This document shows, one piece after another, positions 3,799 to 23,001 of a DNA stretch of 62,546 nucleotides (the first letter of the stretch is position 1; every line of letters begins with the position of its first letter). The DNA is from a virus. The translations under genes were made by a program, and so were the position numbers. The notes under the pieces were generated by a model that was not told where the DNA came from, made no database searches, and saw only the letters and a program-made list of their open reading frames with translations. The DNA lies in IMG/VR virus record IMGVR_UViG_3300025013_000127, positions 1-62,546 of that record; one strand, 5' to 3'.

Positions 3799-4340
3799 GC
3801 GACACGATGTCGCGTGATTATATGTTCTTGATATCAATAATGTTTCACGGATAACAAGAACCTGAAGTATCCCCTTCAGCGCCCTAAGCGGCGTGCTGGG
3901 TACGCGCTGTGTACTTGGTACGAAGCCCGCTGACAATGTACCGAATTGGGTTCGAATGGCGACAGGAGAACCCCTCCGGATAACTCCATCCGGTTAAGGG
4001 CTAGGGCTGGGCAATATGGTGAAATTAGATGAATGGTCGTTGACGCGCCGTCAGAAGGGAACCACCCTACCGGAGTCAACAGGGTGTAGGCATGTTTCCA
4101 AGTGCTTACATGCGTGGACAGGCTGCAAGTCGCCAACATGCTTGCACGGGATCGTTGAGCCACCGGCGTTCAGACCGCACCTAAGTTGTCCGTCAAGTTA
4201 ATCACGCGGAACGTGGAAATGTCGCCACTCCGCCCTGTCTCGCGATGCAGGGCAAGCCGACCGTAAGGCAGGCAGATGGAGGGGCGAAATTGAGAGGTCG
4301 GAAAAAGCGAATGCCATTTCTGTAACGGGATGGATAGAGC

Positions 4341-5993
4341 ATGAAACATGGCTTAGCGCGAAAACCGGGGAACGTCCTTCCACAACCCCGGCGAAACGGC
4401 GCGCCCACGTCCGACTGGTGTTCCGTTGCGAGATCATTTGGAGAACCTCTGAAGATGGGAAAGCAAATGGCGGCTTCGGCCGGTGCGCCCAGAGACAAGA
4501 CCGGATCATGGGGCAAGATCGATTGGATCAAGGCCCGCCGGGAAGTCAGGAGGCTGCAAATCCGTATCGCGAAGGCTGTGAAGGAAGAAAGGTGGAACAA
4601 GGTGAAGTCCTTGCAACACCTGCTGACCCACTCGTTCCACGCCAAGCTCTTGGCTGTCAAACGAGTGACCTCGAACAAAGGCAAGAAAACCCCTGGCGTC
4701 GACGGTGTTCTCTGGAAGACCGCCAAGGCCAGATGGCTGGCTGTTCGCAGCCTGCGCCGACGTGGCTACCGGCCGCAACCGCTGAAAAGGATTTACATTC
4801 CGAAGAAGAATGGACGGAAAAGACCGCTTTCGATTCCCGCGATGTCTGATCGGGCAATGCAGGCGCTGTACAAGCTGGCACTGACACCGGTGGCGGAGAC
4901 CATGGCCGACGGCAACTCCTACGGGTTCCGGGAAGGCCGCAGATGCGCCGACGCTACCGCGGCAGCTTTCAACGCACTGGGCAAACCGAACTCCGCACCG
5001 TGGGTTCTGGAAGCGGATATTGCGGGTTGTTACGACAACATCTGTCAGAACTGGTTGTTGACAAACATCCCAATGGACCGCGAAATTCTTCGCAAGTGGC
5101 TTGAGGCGGGGTATATCGAAGATGGCATCCTATACCCCTCGCACAAAGGAACTCCGCAAGGTGGGATTATCAGCCCCACGCTCGCGAACATGACACTCGA
5201 CGGATTGGAGCGGGTCATCCGCAATGCAGTCCCCCGGCGGTGTCGTATCAACTTCATTCGCTACGCTGACGACTTCATAGTGACGGGCAAATCACGCCGT
5301 CTCCTGGAAAAGTCCATCAGACCGGCGGTTGAAAGGTTCCTGGCCGATCGCGGGCTCCAGCTAGCACCGGAGAAGACCGCAATCACGCACATAAAGCACG
5401 GCTTCACGTTCCTCGGGCAAACCTATCGCAAGACCGGCAATGTACTGCACATCACCCCGGCCAAGGAGGGAGTCCTCGCCCTCAAACGAAAGGTGGGAAC
5501 GTTAATCCGCAAATACGTCAGCGCGCCATTGCCGATCCTTGTCAGGAAGCTGAACCAAACGCTTCGCGGCTGGGGGAACTACCACCGCCATGTGGTGGCA
5601 GGGGAGACTTTTGTAATTGTCGACAAGTATGTCAAGGAACAACTCAGGCGCATGGTGTACCGCAGACACCAAGGAAAGTCCCGGAGATGGCTGGATCGCC
5701 AATATTGGCGGGTTCCCGGACACGAACGGGCGTTTACGGTCGCCTCTAAAACCGCCAAGGGGGAACTACGCAATTATGAGGTATTCCGCCTCAAGTCCCT
5801 GAGCATACGACGACACGTCAAGATCAAGGCCGACGCCAACCCCTACGTGAAGGAAGAGGGGAGGTACTTTGCACGGCGCAAGCTCAACAAAGAATCTATG
5901 GGCGTAGTGGGCAATTCAGCCCGCGAGCGCAAGGCCATGGTCGCCGACAAAAGAGGTAACAGAGCCGGGGCGTCCAACAAGGGCGTCCTTTGA
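4341..5993 (+). CDS. ltrA: Group II intron reverse transcriptase/maturase
   Basis: The 550-residue frame shows the N-terminal RT region (residues 56-130, with KKTPGVDG at 116-123), the finger motif RPLSIPAMSDRAMQ, GTPQGGIISPTLAN (270-283) and the catalytic YADDF at 308-312. A maturase/thumb region follows, ending with KADANPYVKEEG. No HNH endonuclease domain follows, so mobility would be endonuclease-independent. The protein copies the intron RNA and helps it splice. The first about 38 residues may be intron RNA rather than protein; ATG 4455 is an alternative start. The frame looks intact. Confidence 0.93.
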   Translation: MKHGLARKPGNVLPQPRRNGAPTSDWCSVARSFGEPLKMGKQMAASAGAPRDKTGSWGKIDWIKARREVRRLQIRIAKAVKEERWNKVKSLQHLLTHSFHAKLLAVKRVTSNKGKKTPGVDGVLWKTAKARWLAVRSLRRRGYRPQPLKRIYIPKKNGRKRPLSIPAMSDRAMQALYKLALTPVAETMADGNSYGFREGRRCADATAAAFNALGKPNSAPWVLEADIAGCYDNICQNWLLTNIPMDREILRKWLEAGYIEDGILYPSHKGTPQGGIISPTLANMTLDGLERVIRNAVPRRCRINFIRYADDFIVTGKSRRLLEKSIRPAVERFLADRGLQLAPEKTAITHIKHGFTFLGQTYRKTGNVLHITPAKEGVLALKRKVGTLIRKYVSAPLPILVRKLNQTLRGWGNYHRHVVAGETFVIVDKYVKEQLRRMVYRRHQGKSRRWLDRQYWRVPGHERAFTVASKTAKGELRNYEVFRLKSLSIRRHVKIKADANPYVKEEGRYFARRKLNKESMGVVGNSARERKAMVADKRGNRAGASNKGVL

Positions 5994-6001
5994 GAATGCC
6001 T

Positions 6002-6077
6002 GAGCCGGATGAAGCGAAAGTTTCAAGTCCGGTTCTTAGGGGGGGGCGGGAGCCGCAAGGCTCCCCTCCTACCCGGT
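6002..6077 (+). ncRNA. Group II intron domains V and VI
   Basis: Domain V (6002-6035) begins GAGCCGGATGAAGCGAAAG and ends AAGTCCGGTTC, with the AGC catalytic triad and tetraloop expected of the ribozyme core. Domain VI follows as a GC-rich hairpin (GGGAGCC GCAA GGCTCCC). It has an unpaired A in CTCCTACCC that is the likely branch point. Confidence 0.85.
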
Positions 6078-7070: not shown

Positions 7071-8603
7071 ATGGATCACATTGCTATTAGAGTTCGACCT
7101 GCACCCGCAATTCAGGTGGCTTCGGACGAAGCTATTCTCGGCGACGCTACGTTCCCAGCAGCACACGTTGAACGTGTCCGTTCCTACACCTGTCATGAGC
7201 GGCGGCAGCGCGCCGAGTACCATTCGCGCCGTTACCTACGGCATCTTTCGGAGGAGGCACTGCGCCGTCGAGCGGGCGACCTCATCTGCAATGTCGTCTA
7301 CGTCTCACGGCACAACCGATATTCCGCCAACACACGCTATATCCACTACTGGCGGGATCGACTTGCGCACACCGTTGAAGAATTAACCATCCGCGGCGCG
7401 AGCACCGTGATTGAGGAGGGTGTGCTGGACCACCTGCCCCCTCTTGGCTTTTCAACCCCACGAGAGTTAGCCGGGGTTACGCGCGGGCGGGAATTTTACC
7501 GGTACGACAAGCTGAGCTACATCGAATCTTTACGTTCTAAAGGAGAAATCTTCTTGCGGTGCGCGTCAACTACGGACCTTGTACTCGACGCCGCCCGCAG
7601 CGACTCAAACGAGCTGTGTATCCGCCTGTCGCTGCTTGCCGAGGATTTGATCATTGAAAACGATGCATCGGTGCGCCCATGGTCTGGGAACCCAGATGTT
7701 GTAGACGTTAATATCCATCAGAAAACGGACTACTTGATGTTCTGCTTGTCATGCGTCTATGACTGGCGACTGTTTGGTAACTTCGGAGGTGAGGCTGCGG
7801 ACGGTGGCACAGGGGAACCTATGGCCTGCCTCGTCATTACGGACCAGGACGAGTTCTCGCGGCGTTTTGCCCGGGGGGTTGCCAATCTCGTGCCACAGTG
7901 GCGTGACCAAGCCGATGAGATCGAGATTAGCGAGGGAAGAGCCCACTACTACGACCCCTACGACGCACGTGAGTGTAACGCTCTATTCACAAACTCCGGG
8001 ATCTTGCCCTTCGCCAAGCGCCGGAGCTACACGTATCAGCATGAGTATCGGTTTGTCATTCGCCCCTGCCTACCAGAGAACTTTGTTCCCAGTTACTCCC
8101 CAGAGGCAATGCCTCAATTTAGTCGTGATTTTATTTACTTAGATAGCTTGAAAGACATTTCAACAATCATCTACTCAGATCCAGCGCGATTGCATCGGAG
8201 TCGATTTTACCTCTCTAGGAGGGAAAGCAGCATACTGGCGTCTGCAATCGGAGTGACTCTTGATGATAGCTCCGACCGAGTCCGCTTCACCTACTCCGTC
8301 GAGATTAAAGAGCGTGGACGAACCAATCCGGTTGATCTAATGACTCCCATGCGATATGAGCGCGGGGCAATAGGGATTCATCAGCAAGAAATCGACATCC
8401 CAGCGGACCCGTTGTCGCGGGACATCATTTCCTTGGTCGCTAGCTTCTACAAGGTCTTCGATGTGCGCGAACATGGTAATTACTTGATCCAGTTTAATGC
8501 CGAAGCAGCTAGGTTATCGGCGAGGTGTCGGTATCGCGTGTTCTTGCCTTGTGCTGAGCCTGGTGACAAGGGGGGTGGGATAACTAACTCCTCAGAATCT
8601 TGA
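7071..8603 (+). CDS. Large cassette protein, unrecognised (DUF2971/AbiG-like segment)
   Basis: The 510-aa protein is read from ATG 7071 (MDHIAIRVRPAPA); the frame is open from a TTG at 7038 but that codon lies inside the attC. No signal peptide or membrane helix is seen. A central block (TDYLMFCLSCVYDWRLFG, then SYTYQHEYRFVI) recalls the YQxEYR region of DUF2971 and AbiGi-like proteins, which often occur in defence contexts, but the match is from memory and weak. This is the last cassette gene before the prophage, and no attC follows it on this side. Confidence 0.7.
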   Translation: MDHIAIRVRPAPAIQVASDEAILGDATFPAAHVERVRSYTCHERRQRAEYHSRRYLRHLSEEALRRRAGDLICNVVYVSRHNRYSANTRYIHYWRDRLAHTVEELTIRGASTVIEEGVLDHLPPLGFSTPRELAGVTRGREFYRYDKLSYIESLRSKGEIFLRCASTTDLVLDAARSDSNELCIRLSLLAEDLIIENDASVRPWSGNPDVVDVNIHQKTDYLMFCLSCVYDWRLFGNFGGEAADGGTGEPMACLVITDQDEFSRRFARGVANLVPQWRDQADEIEISEGRAHYYDPYDARECNALFTNSGILPFAKRRSYTYQHEYRFVIRPCLPENFVPSYSPEAMPQFSRDFIYLDSLKDISTIIYSDPARLHRSRFYLSRRESSILASAIGVTLDDSSDRVRFTYSVEIKERGRTNPVDLMTPMRYERGAIGIHQQEIDIPADPLSRDIISLVASFYKVFDVREHGNYLIQFNAEAARLSARCRYRVFLPCAEPGDKGGGITNSSES

Positions 8604-18069: not shown

Positions 18070-18232
18070 GCCGCTTACGACTTTGGAGGCTTGCCAAAGG
18101 AGGGAAATCCGAATGCTCTCCGAGGAAAATATGGATTTAAAGATCTTGAACGCACAGCAGTTGGGCGAGATGCACAGGCTTCGGGCGACGATCGAGGAGC
18201 TCCAGGCTCTGACTGCCAGGGTGGCGGCTTAA
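18062..18232 (+). CDS. Short coiled-coil early protein
   Basis: A 56-aa frame runs MLEPLTTLEACQRREIRML to RATIEELQALTARVAA. It overlaps the previous gene by eight bases. A strong AAAGGAGG at 18096-18103 precedes an in-frame ATG at 18112, so a 39-residue form is equally likely. The second half is a heptad-like amphipathic helix. It fills the gap before the GemA gene. Confidence 0.5.
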   Translation: MLEPLTTLEACQRREIRMLSEENMDLKILNAQQLGEMHRLRATIEELQALTARVAA

Positions 18233-18252
18233 TATTGAACGGGGGTGGGCTT

Positions 18253-18831
18253 ATGTTGAAACAGTGCAGCTATCGCAAGTTTAAGGATCTTCCGATCAAC
18301 GGCAAGCAGAAGACGGTCATCAAGATGGCTTGCGCGAAGATCGGGATCGATCGCGAGACCGAGCACGACATGCTCGAGGAGCGCTTCGGTGTACGGTCTT
18401 GCACCAAGCTCTCTTTCAACCAGGCCAGCGAGTTCATCAAGGAGCTGGAGGGTAAGGGCTTTACGCTGCTCCCCGGGAAAAAGCCTGCCAAGGTTGCCCC
18501 GGCTAAGCCGTCCCGCAAGCCGATCAGCCGGACGGATGACAAGATCGTGGGCTTGGCCACCAGGGGCGAGCTGGAAAAGGTGGACCAGGTGGCGCAGCTG
18601 ATCAAGTGGCGCGAGGAGAACGGCTTGATGCTCTTCCTTGAGATCCGGATGGGGATCAAGGGCGGCAGGATCCGGACGTCCAGGGAGGCTTACCTCGCCA
18701 TCGAGGGGCTGAAAAAGATGTTCGAGAACGGGATGAAAAAGGCGTACGGCGAGGGTTGGTGGATCATGCCCTACACCGATCAGGGAATCACTGAGTACAT
18801 CCGGATGCATAAACCGGCTGAGTGGAGGTAG
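18253..18831 (+). CDS. gemA: GemA (Mu gp16, DUF1018) regulator
   Basis: The 192-aa protein starts at ATG 18253 behind GGGGGTGGG. Its N-terminal half (KTVIKMACAKIGIDRETEHD, LSFNQASEFIKELEGKG) and C-terminal half (DDKIVGLATRGELEKVDQV, REAYLAIEGLKKM) together match the GemA family. In Mu, GemA affects host gene expression and DNA topology during the early phase. A basic proline-rich linker (about 80-100) joins the two parts. Confidence 0.82.
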   Translation: MLKQCSYRKFKDLPINGKQKTVIKMACAKIGIDRETEHDMLEERFGVRSCTKLSFNQASEFIKELEGKGFTLLPGKKPAKVAPAKPSRKPISRTDDKIVGLATRGELEKVDQVAQLIKWREENGLMLFLEIRMGIKGGRIRTSREAYLAIEGLKKMFENGMKKAYGEGWWIMPYTDQGITEYIRMHKPAEWR

Positions 18832-18833
18832 GG

Positions 18834-18992
18834 GTGGATTCGGGTCATGTTGTTATCGTCTGCCTTTTCTTGATCGCCGCCCTCTCCTACTCGTTCCGTG
18901 ATGGCTCTGATCCCTTCACGGCTGCATGTTTCATCAGTGCCTTGATCCTGGTCGGCAAGGCTTGGGCCTGGCTATTTGGAGGTAGCTCTTGA
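18834..18992 (+). CDS. Very small membrane protein
   Basis: GTG 18834 directly follows GGAGGTAGG at the end of gemA. The 52-aa product (MDSGHVVIVCLFLIAALSYS, then FISALILVGKAWAWLF) has two transmembrane helices. Its stop overlaps the next gene start by four bases, which supports translation. The function is unknown. Confidence 0.6.
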   Translation: MDSGHVVIVCLFLIAALSYSFRDGSDPFTAACFISALILVGKAWAWLFGGSS

Positions 18993-19297
18993 GTGCTGAG
19001 GATAAGCTGAGGGGGATGATCGCAGCGGCGGGCTTGCCGATGCGGGGGAGCTACCGGTCGAGCGAGGTGCGCACTCTCCTCGGCATCAGCGAGGCTTCGT
19101 TTTGGCGTTTGGTCAACCGCTGCGAAAAGGGGGAGGACGGCAGTCTGGTTCATCCGGATTGCCTTGATTCGTTTTCGCTGAAACGGGAACGCCGGGTTTG
19201 CTACACGGAGCTGGTGGCTTTCTTGACCAGGAATAACAGCTACACCAGGCAGCATGCGGTTGATCCTAAGCAGATGGGGCTTTTCGAGGAGGGGTGA
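18989..19297 (+). CDS. MerR/excisionase-type HTH protein
   Basis: A TTG start at 18989 follows GGAGGTAGC. The 102-aa protein contains YRSSEVRTLLGISEASFWRL, the helix-turn-helix of excisionase-like proteins, and a beta-wing region (RRVCYTELVAFL). It is a probable DNA-binding protein of the early operon. Confidence 0.65.
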   Translation: MSAEDKLRGMIAAAGLPMRGSYRSSEVRTLLGISEASFWRLVNRCEKGEDGSLVHPDCLDSFSLKRERRVCYTELVAFLTRNNSYTRQHAVDPKQMGLFEEG

Positions 19298-22001: not shown

Positions 22002-22031
22002 TTGACAAAAAACACGGCTTTGGGTTATAGA
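22002..22031 (+). promoter_or_regulatory. Consensus sigma70 promoter before the late operon
   Basis: TTGACA (22002-22007) is followed 18 bases later by TATAGA (22026-22031), or 17 bases later by TTATAG. It needs no activator by sequence. It lies directly after the last early gene and faces the late genes. Confidence 0.75.
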
Positions 22032-22036
22032 ATCAG

Positions 22037-22121
22037 CTTCACTCCCCGCAGTAAATCGTTGTAAGCCCCCACAATCACTCTCATGACCAATCACCTGAAC
22101 GCGCCAAACGGCGCGTTTTTT
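22037..22121 (+). ncRNA. Candidate short leader RNA between late promoter and terminator
   Basis: A transcript from the promoter at 22002-22031 would start near 22037 and stop at the intrinsic terminator ending near 22121, giving about 85 nt. No reading frame with a ribosome site lies in it. It could be a stand-alone small RNA, or the short leader of a regulated read-through switch like lambda 6S RNA at pR'. Confidence 0.55.
22098..22121 (+). terminator. Rho-independent terminator ahead of the late operon
   Basis: AACGCGCC AAAC GGCGCGTT (22098-22117) is followed by a run of T. It is a strong intrinsic terminator, on the plus strand, between early and late genes. Confidence 0.85.
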
Positions 22122-22156
22122 CGTATTGTCCAACCTACTTGATTCACCCCCCTAAA

Positions 22157-22191
22157 GGATCGTCCCGGTGCTGGTCGCGCCGGGGCGATCC
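22157..22191 (+). other. GC-rich hairpin in the late leader
   Basis: GGATCG and TCCCGG pair with CCGGGG and CGATCC across an 11-base loop. No T run follows. It is a structured element of the leader or regulatory segment. Confidence 0.5.
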
Positions 22192-22240
22192 ACCTCAACT
22201 CTCAACTTACATGCTTTCGCTTTCGTTGATCGATTGTCGA

Positions 22241-22263
22241 GTTGTCCGAAATCATCGGACAAC
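22241..22263 (+). promoter_or_regulatory. 23-bp perfect palindrome, likely operator of the late region
   Basis: GTTGTCCGA and TCGGACAAC are perfect inverted repeats around a 5-base centre. Related half-sites TTGTCCAA (22124) and TTGTCGAG (22234) lie upstream. The spacing suits a dimeric HTH regulator. It stands 55 bases before the endolysin start. Confidence 0.6.
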
Positions 22264-22317: not shown

Positions 22318-23001
22318 ATGTCTGCGGACTTTTTGACGGCTCATCGGTTGACCATGGGCGAGGAAGGGGGCTTTGCAAATAACCCCGATGATAAGGGCGG
22401 CCCTACTTACAAGGGATGCGCCAAGAAGTTCTGGGGTCATCTGCCGCTCTGGAAAATCATCGACTGGCACTTGTCCCAGGTACCGCCCCAGCCGCGCTAC
22501 AGCTTCAAACCGGGCGCTGCTTACCGTGGGTGGGTCGCCAACTTGAACGCACGGCTGGCGGCTGATCGGGAGCTGCAGGCGAAGATTCTTTCCTTCTATC
22601 GCGAGGTGTTCTGGAAGGCTAACCGCTTGGACCAGGTGAACGATCAGCGGGTGGCGAACTGGATTTACGACCATGCGGTGAACGGCGGCGGTCGCGGCAT
22701 CGGCTGGATGCAGACGGCGGCGGGCGCCAAGCCGGATGGGGTTATCGGCCCGAAGACTGTCGCGGCGATCAACGCGGCTGATGCGATCGCGATTCTGGGG
22801 CGTGCCGAGGATGAGGCTGCTGTCTACCGGCTGGTCCGGGCGCACAGGGACCCCAGCCAGATTGCCTTTCTCCCCTCCTGGCTGAAGCGGGACGGGCTGT
22901 CCGAGAGTGAGATCCGCGCGGTCATGTTCGCCGCGTCCGATGGGGAGCTTTCCATGGCTGAGTTGAAGGAGCTGACCGCGCTGATCATCGCGACGGCTTA
23001 G
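22318..23001 (+). CDS. Endolysin, glycoside hydrolase family 108
   Basis: ATG 22318 follows GGAGG. The 227-aa protein has the GH108 N-terminal motif GEEGGFANNPDDKGGPTYKG with the catalytic Glu in EGG (E16). RVANWIYDHAVNGG and a C-terminal peptidoglycan-binding-3-like part (GVIGPKTVAAINA) follow. It cleaves peptidoglycan at lysis. No signal peptide is present, so it needs a holin. It is the first late gene. Confidence 0.9.
   Translation: MSADFLTAHRLTMGEEGGFANNPDDKGGPTYKGCAKKFWGHLPLWKIIDWHLSQVPPQPRYSFKPGAAYRGWVANLNARLAADRELQAKILSFYREVFWKANRLDQVNDQRVANWIYDHAVNGGGRGIGWMQTAAGAKPDGVIGPKTVAAINAADAIAILGRAEDEAAVYRLVRAHRDPSQIAFLPSWLKRDGLSESEIRAVMFAASDGELSMAELKELTALIIATA

Follow-up and report, generated by a model that had tools for sequence, protein, structure and literature searches.

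In the region that we analyzed, the early genes of a Mu-like phage, which infects Geobacter-type bacteria, give way to the late ones. The late genes are probably expressed from an activator-dependent promoter of the Mu Pm type (we put the probability at about 0.6): An HTH protein would serve as the activator, its QxxLF motif may tie it to the clamp, and an additional promoter-terminator unit, headed by the promoter P1, would stand in front. If so, the phage has a late switch like that of Mu but without Mor, whose part an unrelated HTH protein appears to play. A promoter-into-terminator unit has been kept before the late promoters of many phages. The window is the 62,546-bp IMG/VR record IMGVR_UViG_3300025013_000127, and the phages or prophages most closely related to it come from Geobacter and other Desulfuromonadales.

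In the course of events that we propose, P1, a promoter of the sigma70 type, would make an RNA that ends after 84 nt, and the intrinsic terminator would stop both early and P1 transcription short of the late genes. A late promoter of the Mu Pm kind, consisting of a -10 box alone (22124-22129) and starting transcription near 22136, would then need an activator whose binding site covers the terminator DNA and extends upstream of it; this activator would most likely be the HTH protein (18989-19297), replacing Mor. Its C-terminal QxxLF may tie the activator to the host beta clamp, such that late genes would fire on replicating DNA. The likeliest role for P1 would be to keep polymerase passing over the activator site, helping to keep the late promoter silent until enough activator is present, although this holding role, which we propose with low confidence, is the weakest step of the explanation.

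The boundary and its recurrence in related phages

Loci of related phages were gathered through homology to the transposase, terminase, HTH protein, endolysin or Mor. The common order across their boundaries is TTGACA-N17/18-TANANN, a short leader and an intrinsic terminator; about 20 related transposable phages have this arrangement of promoter, short leader and terminator where early genes meet late genes, and it persists when the terminator sequences differ. Many Mor loci have other arrangements. A GenBank search returned no phages near-identical to the window at the junction, and a search by the terminator and late-box pattern for closer relatives returned no new ones. In some phages (L088, L111, L018), the leader that follows a TTGACA promoter, downstream of mor or close to it, is of another kind, longer and structured (TTTTTGTGCCC...).

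The initial annotation of this DNA had described a promoter, an intrinsic terminator about 85 bases after the start point and then a run of co-directional late genes, and these elements are present (Table 1). The predicted transcript of 84 nt ends at 22121, within the T-run (22116-22121) of a terminator whose hairpin, GAACGCGCC-AAAC-GGCGCGTTT at 22097-22118, has a folding energy of -14.8 kcal/mol (z -3.9) and which is the best-scoring terminator between positions 8001 and 27000. From the endolysin (22318-23001) onward, the terminase, the portal and further late genes follow on the same strand. Relatives keep the GCGCC...GGCGC form of the terminator, with other stems in L034, L060, L064 and L072 and in the phages of the Mor type. 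Elsewhere in the window, a group II intron lies at 3861-6077 (Rfam D1-D4 and D5-D6 matches) and encloses a 550-aa ORF (4341-5993).

Table 1. Positions, strands and supporting evidence of features at and near the early/late boundary of the window.
Feature	Position	Strand	Evidence or remark
gemA homologue	18184..18831	+	PF06252; marks synteny with Mu gemA-mor
102-aa HTH_17 (Xis/AlpA-like) protein, C-terminus ...VDPKQMGLFEEG; candidate late activator	18989..19297	+	After gemA, in the position of Mu mor
P1, sigma70-like promoter (TTGACA-N18-TATAGA) that reads toward the terminator	22002..22031	+	Unique in window; same place in relatives
Predicted P1 RNA, 84 nt; leader C/A-rich and G-poor (11% G), ending in the terminator	22038..22121	+	Sequence, fold, composition
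Place matching the activator repeats of relatives	22079..22098	+	Not recognisable in window; best score p 0.22
Intrinsic terminator at end of early region	22097..22121	+	9-bp stem; fold and terminator scan
TATTGT, -10-like box of the proposed activator-dependent late promoter; start inferred at ~22136	22124..22129	+	Conservation, spacing
15-bp hairpin near 5' end of predicted late mRNA	22157..22191	+	-32.4 kcal/mol, z -6.8; loop with conserved TNGTC
23-bp palindrome GTTGTCCGAAATCATCGGACAAC, late-leader hairpin before endolysin	22241..22263	.	Folds; relatives have unrelated hairpins about there
First late gene, GH108 endolysin	22318..23001	+	ATG 22318, SD GGAGG

The proposed late promoter and its candidate activators

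A -10-like hexamer, TATNNT, comes immediately after the terminator in every representative junction, usually with CCC behind it. These hexamers are short and were chosen partly by eye, and with that proviso the A at position 2 occurs in 21/21 and the T at position 6 in 20/21 representative junctions. The late box has no -35 hexamer; in the window, the bases at the -35 place read GCGCCA. We infer that late transcription depends on an activator.

The closest known parallel is Pm of phage Mu, where Mor is bound at -43.5 and the promoter has a -10 but no -35 (Ma and Howe 2015, PMC4390567). The -10 of Mu Pm is TATCCT, a hexamer that also occurs in two of the relatives (L009, L010); one terminator is annotated inside Pm and a second abuts Plys. 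The junction in the window follows the gemA-mor position, its late box likewise stands without a -35, the terminator overlaps the promoter as in Mu, and sister phages of the Mor type have their dyad near -43. The window differs from Mu in three respects: It has an Xis/AlpA-like HTH protein instead of Mor, it has an extra TTGACA promoter pointing at the terminator, and its late promoter would drive the endolysin and the late operon directly, with no C stage seen.

The initial annotation had likened the boundary to the late switch of phage lambda (pR'-6S RNA-tR'), in which, in the lysogen, the RNA of a constitutive P1 would stop at 22121, and read-through into the late operon would depend on a Q-like factor of the phage. 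The resemblance in layout is real: Promoter, short leader and intrinsic terminator precede the late genes in both systems, the layout is conserved over about 20 phages, P1 has outlasted exchange of both the activator and the terminator sequence, and several phages have small HTH genes immediately upstream, which is where Q lies. However, we consider antitermination of this kind unlikely. Two loci without P1, one in which it is degenerate (L003) and one in which it is absent and only the late box is kept (L074), still retain the late -10 box. The layout is common to Mor-bearing sisters, which, besides the same P1, carry beyond the terminator a Mor site of the Mu type, and whose leaders, at about 10-20 nt, share no sequence. 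Moreover, the scan of early ORFs against Pfam and PHROGs found no antiterminator family, Q included. Among the features of the lambda system described in PMC7171158 are a sigma-dependent promoter-proximal pause and a Q binding element. A second conserved promoter box behind the terminator distinguishes the window from lambda. Because the terminators of Mu overlap Pm and Plys, a terminator at such a place is no lambda signature. The conserved box behind the terminator, its persistence where P1 is lost, and the Mor-type and HTH-type sites of sister phages together point to a start downstream of 22121 at an activator-dependent promoter as the better-supported reading.

The sites that such an activator would bind divide the junctions into two classes, Mor-type and HTH-type, with each activator co-occurring with its own type of site. 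In phages of the Mor type, the Mor gene ends at or near P1 and lies directly upstream of the junction (L007 and L037; by reading, also L028, L019 and L004), and a dyad of the form TTTTG...CAAAA (e.g., TTTTGTGCACACCGCAAAA), read by eye, has its centre some 43 bp before the inferred start. Phages of the HTH type have a pair of ACAAA direct repeats with a 10-bp period (lag-10 identity of 0.52 vs. 0.33 ± 0.03). The distance from the start of these repeats to the late -10 downstream is exactly 45 bp in L012, L013, L008, L009, L010, L034, L036, L040, L047, L060 and L072, a spacing that holds across three unrelated terminator stem sequences; the best repeat register differs in L063 and L064. No further copies of the repeat operator were found elsewhere in the HTH-type loci. 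We rejected the GCGCC palindrome as a general activator site: The stem changes in L034, L060, L064 and L072, and the repeats stay at 45 in L034, L060 and L072.

Repeat scoring did not recognise the repeats in the sister locus L003 or in the window (p = 0.22 in the latter), and therefore the link between the window and its presumed activator rests on synteny and orthology. The protein encoded at 18989-19297 matches HTH_17 weakly. Its AlphaFold model is of moderate confidence (pLDDT 73); the core is an HTH, and the tail is predicted with low confidence. PF08765 (Mor) has no match in the whole record, which agrees with the earlier statement that the early genes include no Mor or C, and a comparison of profiles gave no relation of the HTH protein to Mor (probability of 1.6%), so that we rejected a divergent Mor. 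In the phages of the HTH type, a protein of 102-110 aa with the HTH_17 fold occurs in place of Mor, and orthologues with the tail lie directly upstream of the junction in L009, L010, L034, L047, L060, L063, L064 and L072. Tandem short HTH paralogues that lack the clamp-like tail (L035/L080, L066, L075/L081) belong to phages without the junction; the exceptions are L074, which retains no more than the late box, and L065 and L067, which have tailed HTH proteins, yet no such junction was found in them. In light of its position and orthology, the protein of the window is most likely the late activator that stands in for Mor.

The promoter that points at the terminator

P1 combines a -35 of TTGACA (22002-22007) with a -10 of TATAGA (22026-22031) across an 18-bp spacer, with an inferred start at about 22038. 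As the earlier description claimed, this promoter is present, and it is the only exact copy of TTGACA-N18-TATAGA in the window (expected number, 0.00). That it is a strong promoter, as was also claimed, is not borne out: Its -10 has no T at the last position, which leaves strength unproven and would allow for slow opening, and it was for want of this T that a generic promoter scan did not list P1. The same position is never T in the 19 of 19 phages that could be compared, and, by reading, the -10 boxes of early promoters in these phages do end in T. P1 may thus be built to open slowly. No operators for a repressor were seen at P1 in L034, the one locus read for them.

In 17/21 representative junctions, a TTGACA without mismatch is followed by a -10 at a spacing of 17-18 bp, against 0.05 expected from shuffles, a figure that is indicative because the set of junctions was chosen partly by layout. 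Junctions reached independently of layout tell the same: P1 is present in all four of those found through the HTH search that have terminator and late box in the expected place (L060, L063, L064, L072), and in each of the three endolysin-first junctions to which the endolysin led (L135, L138, L143). L004 has only a weak candidate for P1. P1 and the late -10 lie 111-143 bp apart across relatives even though the intervening DNA differs, and P1 is therefore probably tied to the late promoter. This conservation in most relatives counts against a pure Pm model, which does not need P1.

It might be argued that P1 is weak or non-functional, its TTGACA being a decaying relic, and that only the early terminator and the late promoter matter. 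The -10 without its final T in every case, together with the degenerate P1 of L003 and the missing P1 of L074, would be expected of a relic; however, the recurrence of a perfect TTGACA in the representative junctions is unlike decay, and we give this view very little credence.

Another view holds that P1 makes a short regulatory RNA that acts in trans and ends at the terminator, the late operon being a separate matter. An RNA of about 84 nt with its own promoter and its own terminator would fit this description, as would the leaders of the HTH type, which share C-runs and are poor in G (3-11%). Nevertheless, the conserved bases of the leader overlap the activator repeats, the junction region has no match in Rfam, and in phages of the Mor type almost nothing but the terminator hairpin is left of the RNA. 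Its body is not conserved between the HTH and Mor types, such that a conserved short RNA was rejected as a candidate, and a regulatory RNA is on this evidence improbable. As a separate observation, the leader before the terminator (22038-22098, and likewise in HTH-type relatives), being C/A-rich with 3-11% G, resembles a Rho loading site.

C-terminal tails and the late leader

The tails of the HTH proteins read QMxLF (QMGLF in the window), and the Mor-family proteins of sister phages likewise end in QxxLF. The motif is QPDLF-SPETPK in Mu C and QPSLL in Mu Mor, and phages of Vibrio, Shewanella and Pasteurella have QPNLF, QPDLF and QRDLF. In its relaxed form, the motif occurs in 14/16 HTH tails and 23/36 Mor/C tails vs. 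23/801 control ORFs. A set of 12 diverse Mor/C proteins has only eight invariant columns, and the Q and L of the motif are two of them. For comparison, the consensus for binding to the beta clamp is QxxL(x)F or QL(S/D)LF, at a flexible C-terminus (PMC5371812, PMC4549789).

Because the HTH and Mor/C proteins both end in QxxLF, their tails suggest that late transcription is coupled to replication. We entertain, as a tentative proposal that is somewhat more apt to fail than to hold, that Mor/C and, convergently, the unrelated HTH protein bind the host clamp through this motif, so that late genes would be on only when phage DNA replicates. Late transcription in T4 offers a precedent, with co-activators (gp33/gp55) tethered to a sliding clamp (gp45) at promoters that have only a -10 (PMC2988020). 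The systems would have in common a -10-only late promoter and a C-terminal clamp-binding tail; they differ in that the tailed protein is here a DNA-binding HTH or Mor protein, and both sigma and the putative clamp partner are those of the host. If the proposal is true, a T4-like logic would have been assembled from the sigma70 and the clamp of the host together with an activator bound to DNA. Transposases with C-terminal beta-clamp motifs (e.g., that of IS1634) provide another case of QxxLF in the flexible tail of a mobile-element protein (PMC4549789), whereas the proteins considered here are proposed activators of transcription. We found no paper that connects Mor to the clamp in the literature searched, which was largely without subscription journals. 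The clamp-like tail of Mor/C makes the timing of Mu-like late transcription after replication testable by a few point mutations.

Among the Mor/C proteins as collected here (L113, L057, L115-L124, L084-L112), a C-terminal QxxL(F) resembling the beta-clamp-binding motif is nearly invariant.

Beyond the late box lie the hairpin at 22157-22191 and the palindrome at 22241-22263, which had been suggested as possible parts of the control. Both elements are present, and we assign them to the late leader rather than to a terminator switch. In the hairpin, 8/12 pairs have changed on both sides across nine phages, with 86% paired and no slid register coming close. This covarying hairpin, with its TNGTC loop, is common to the HTH-type relatives.
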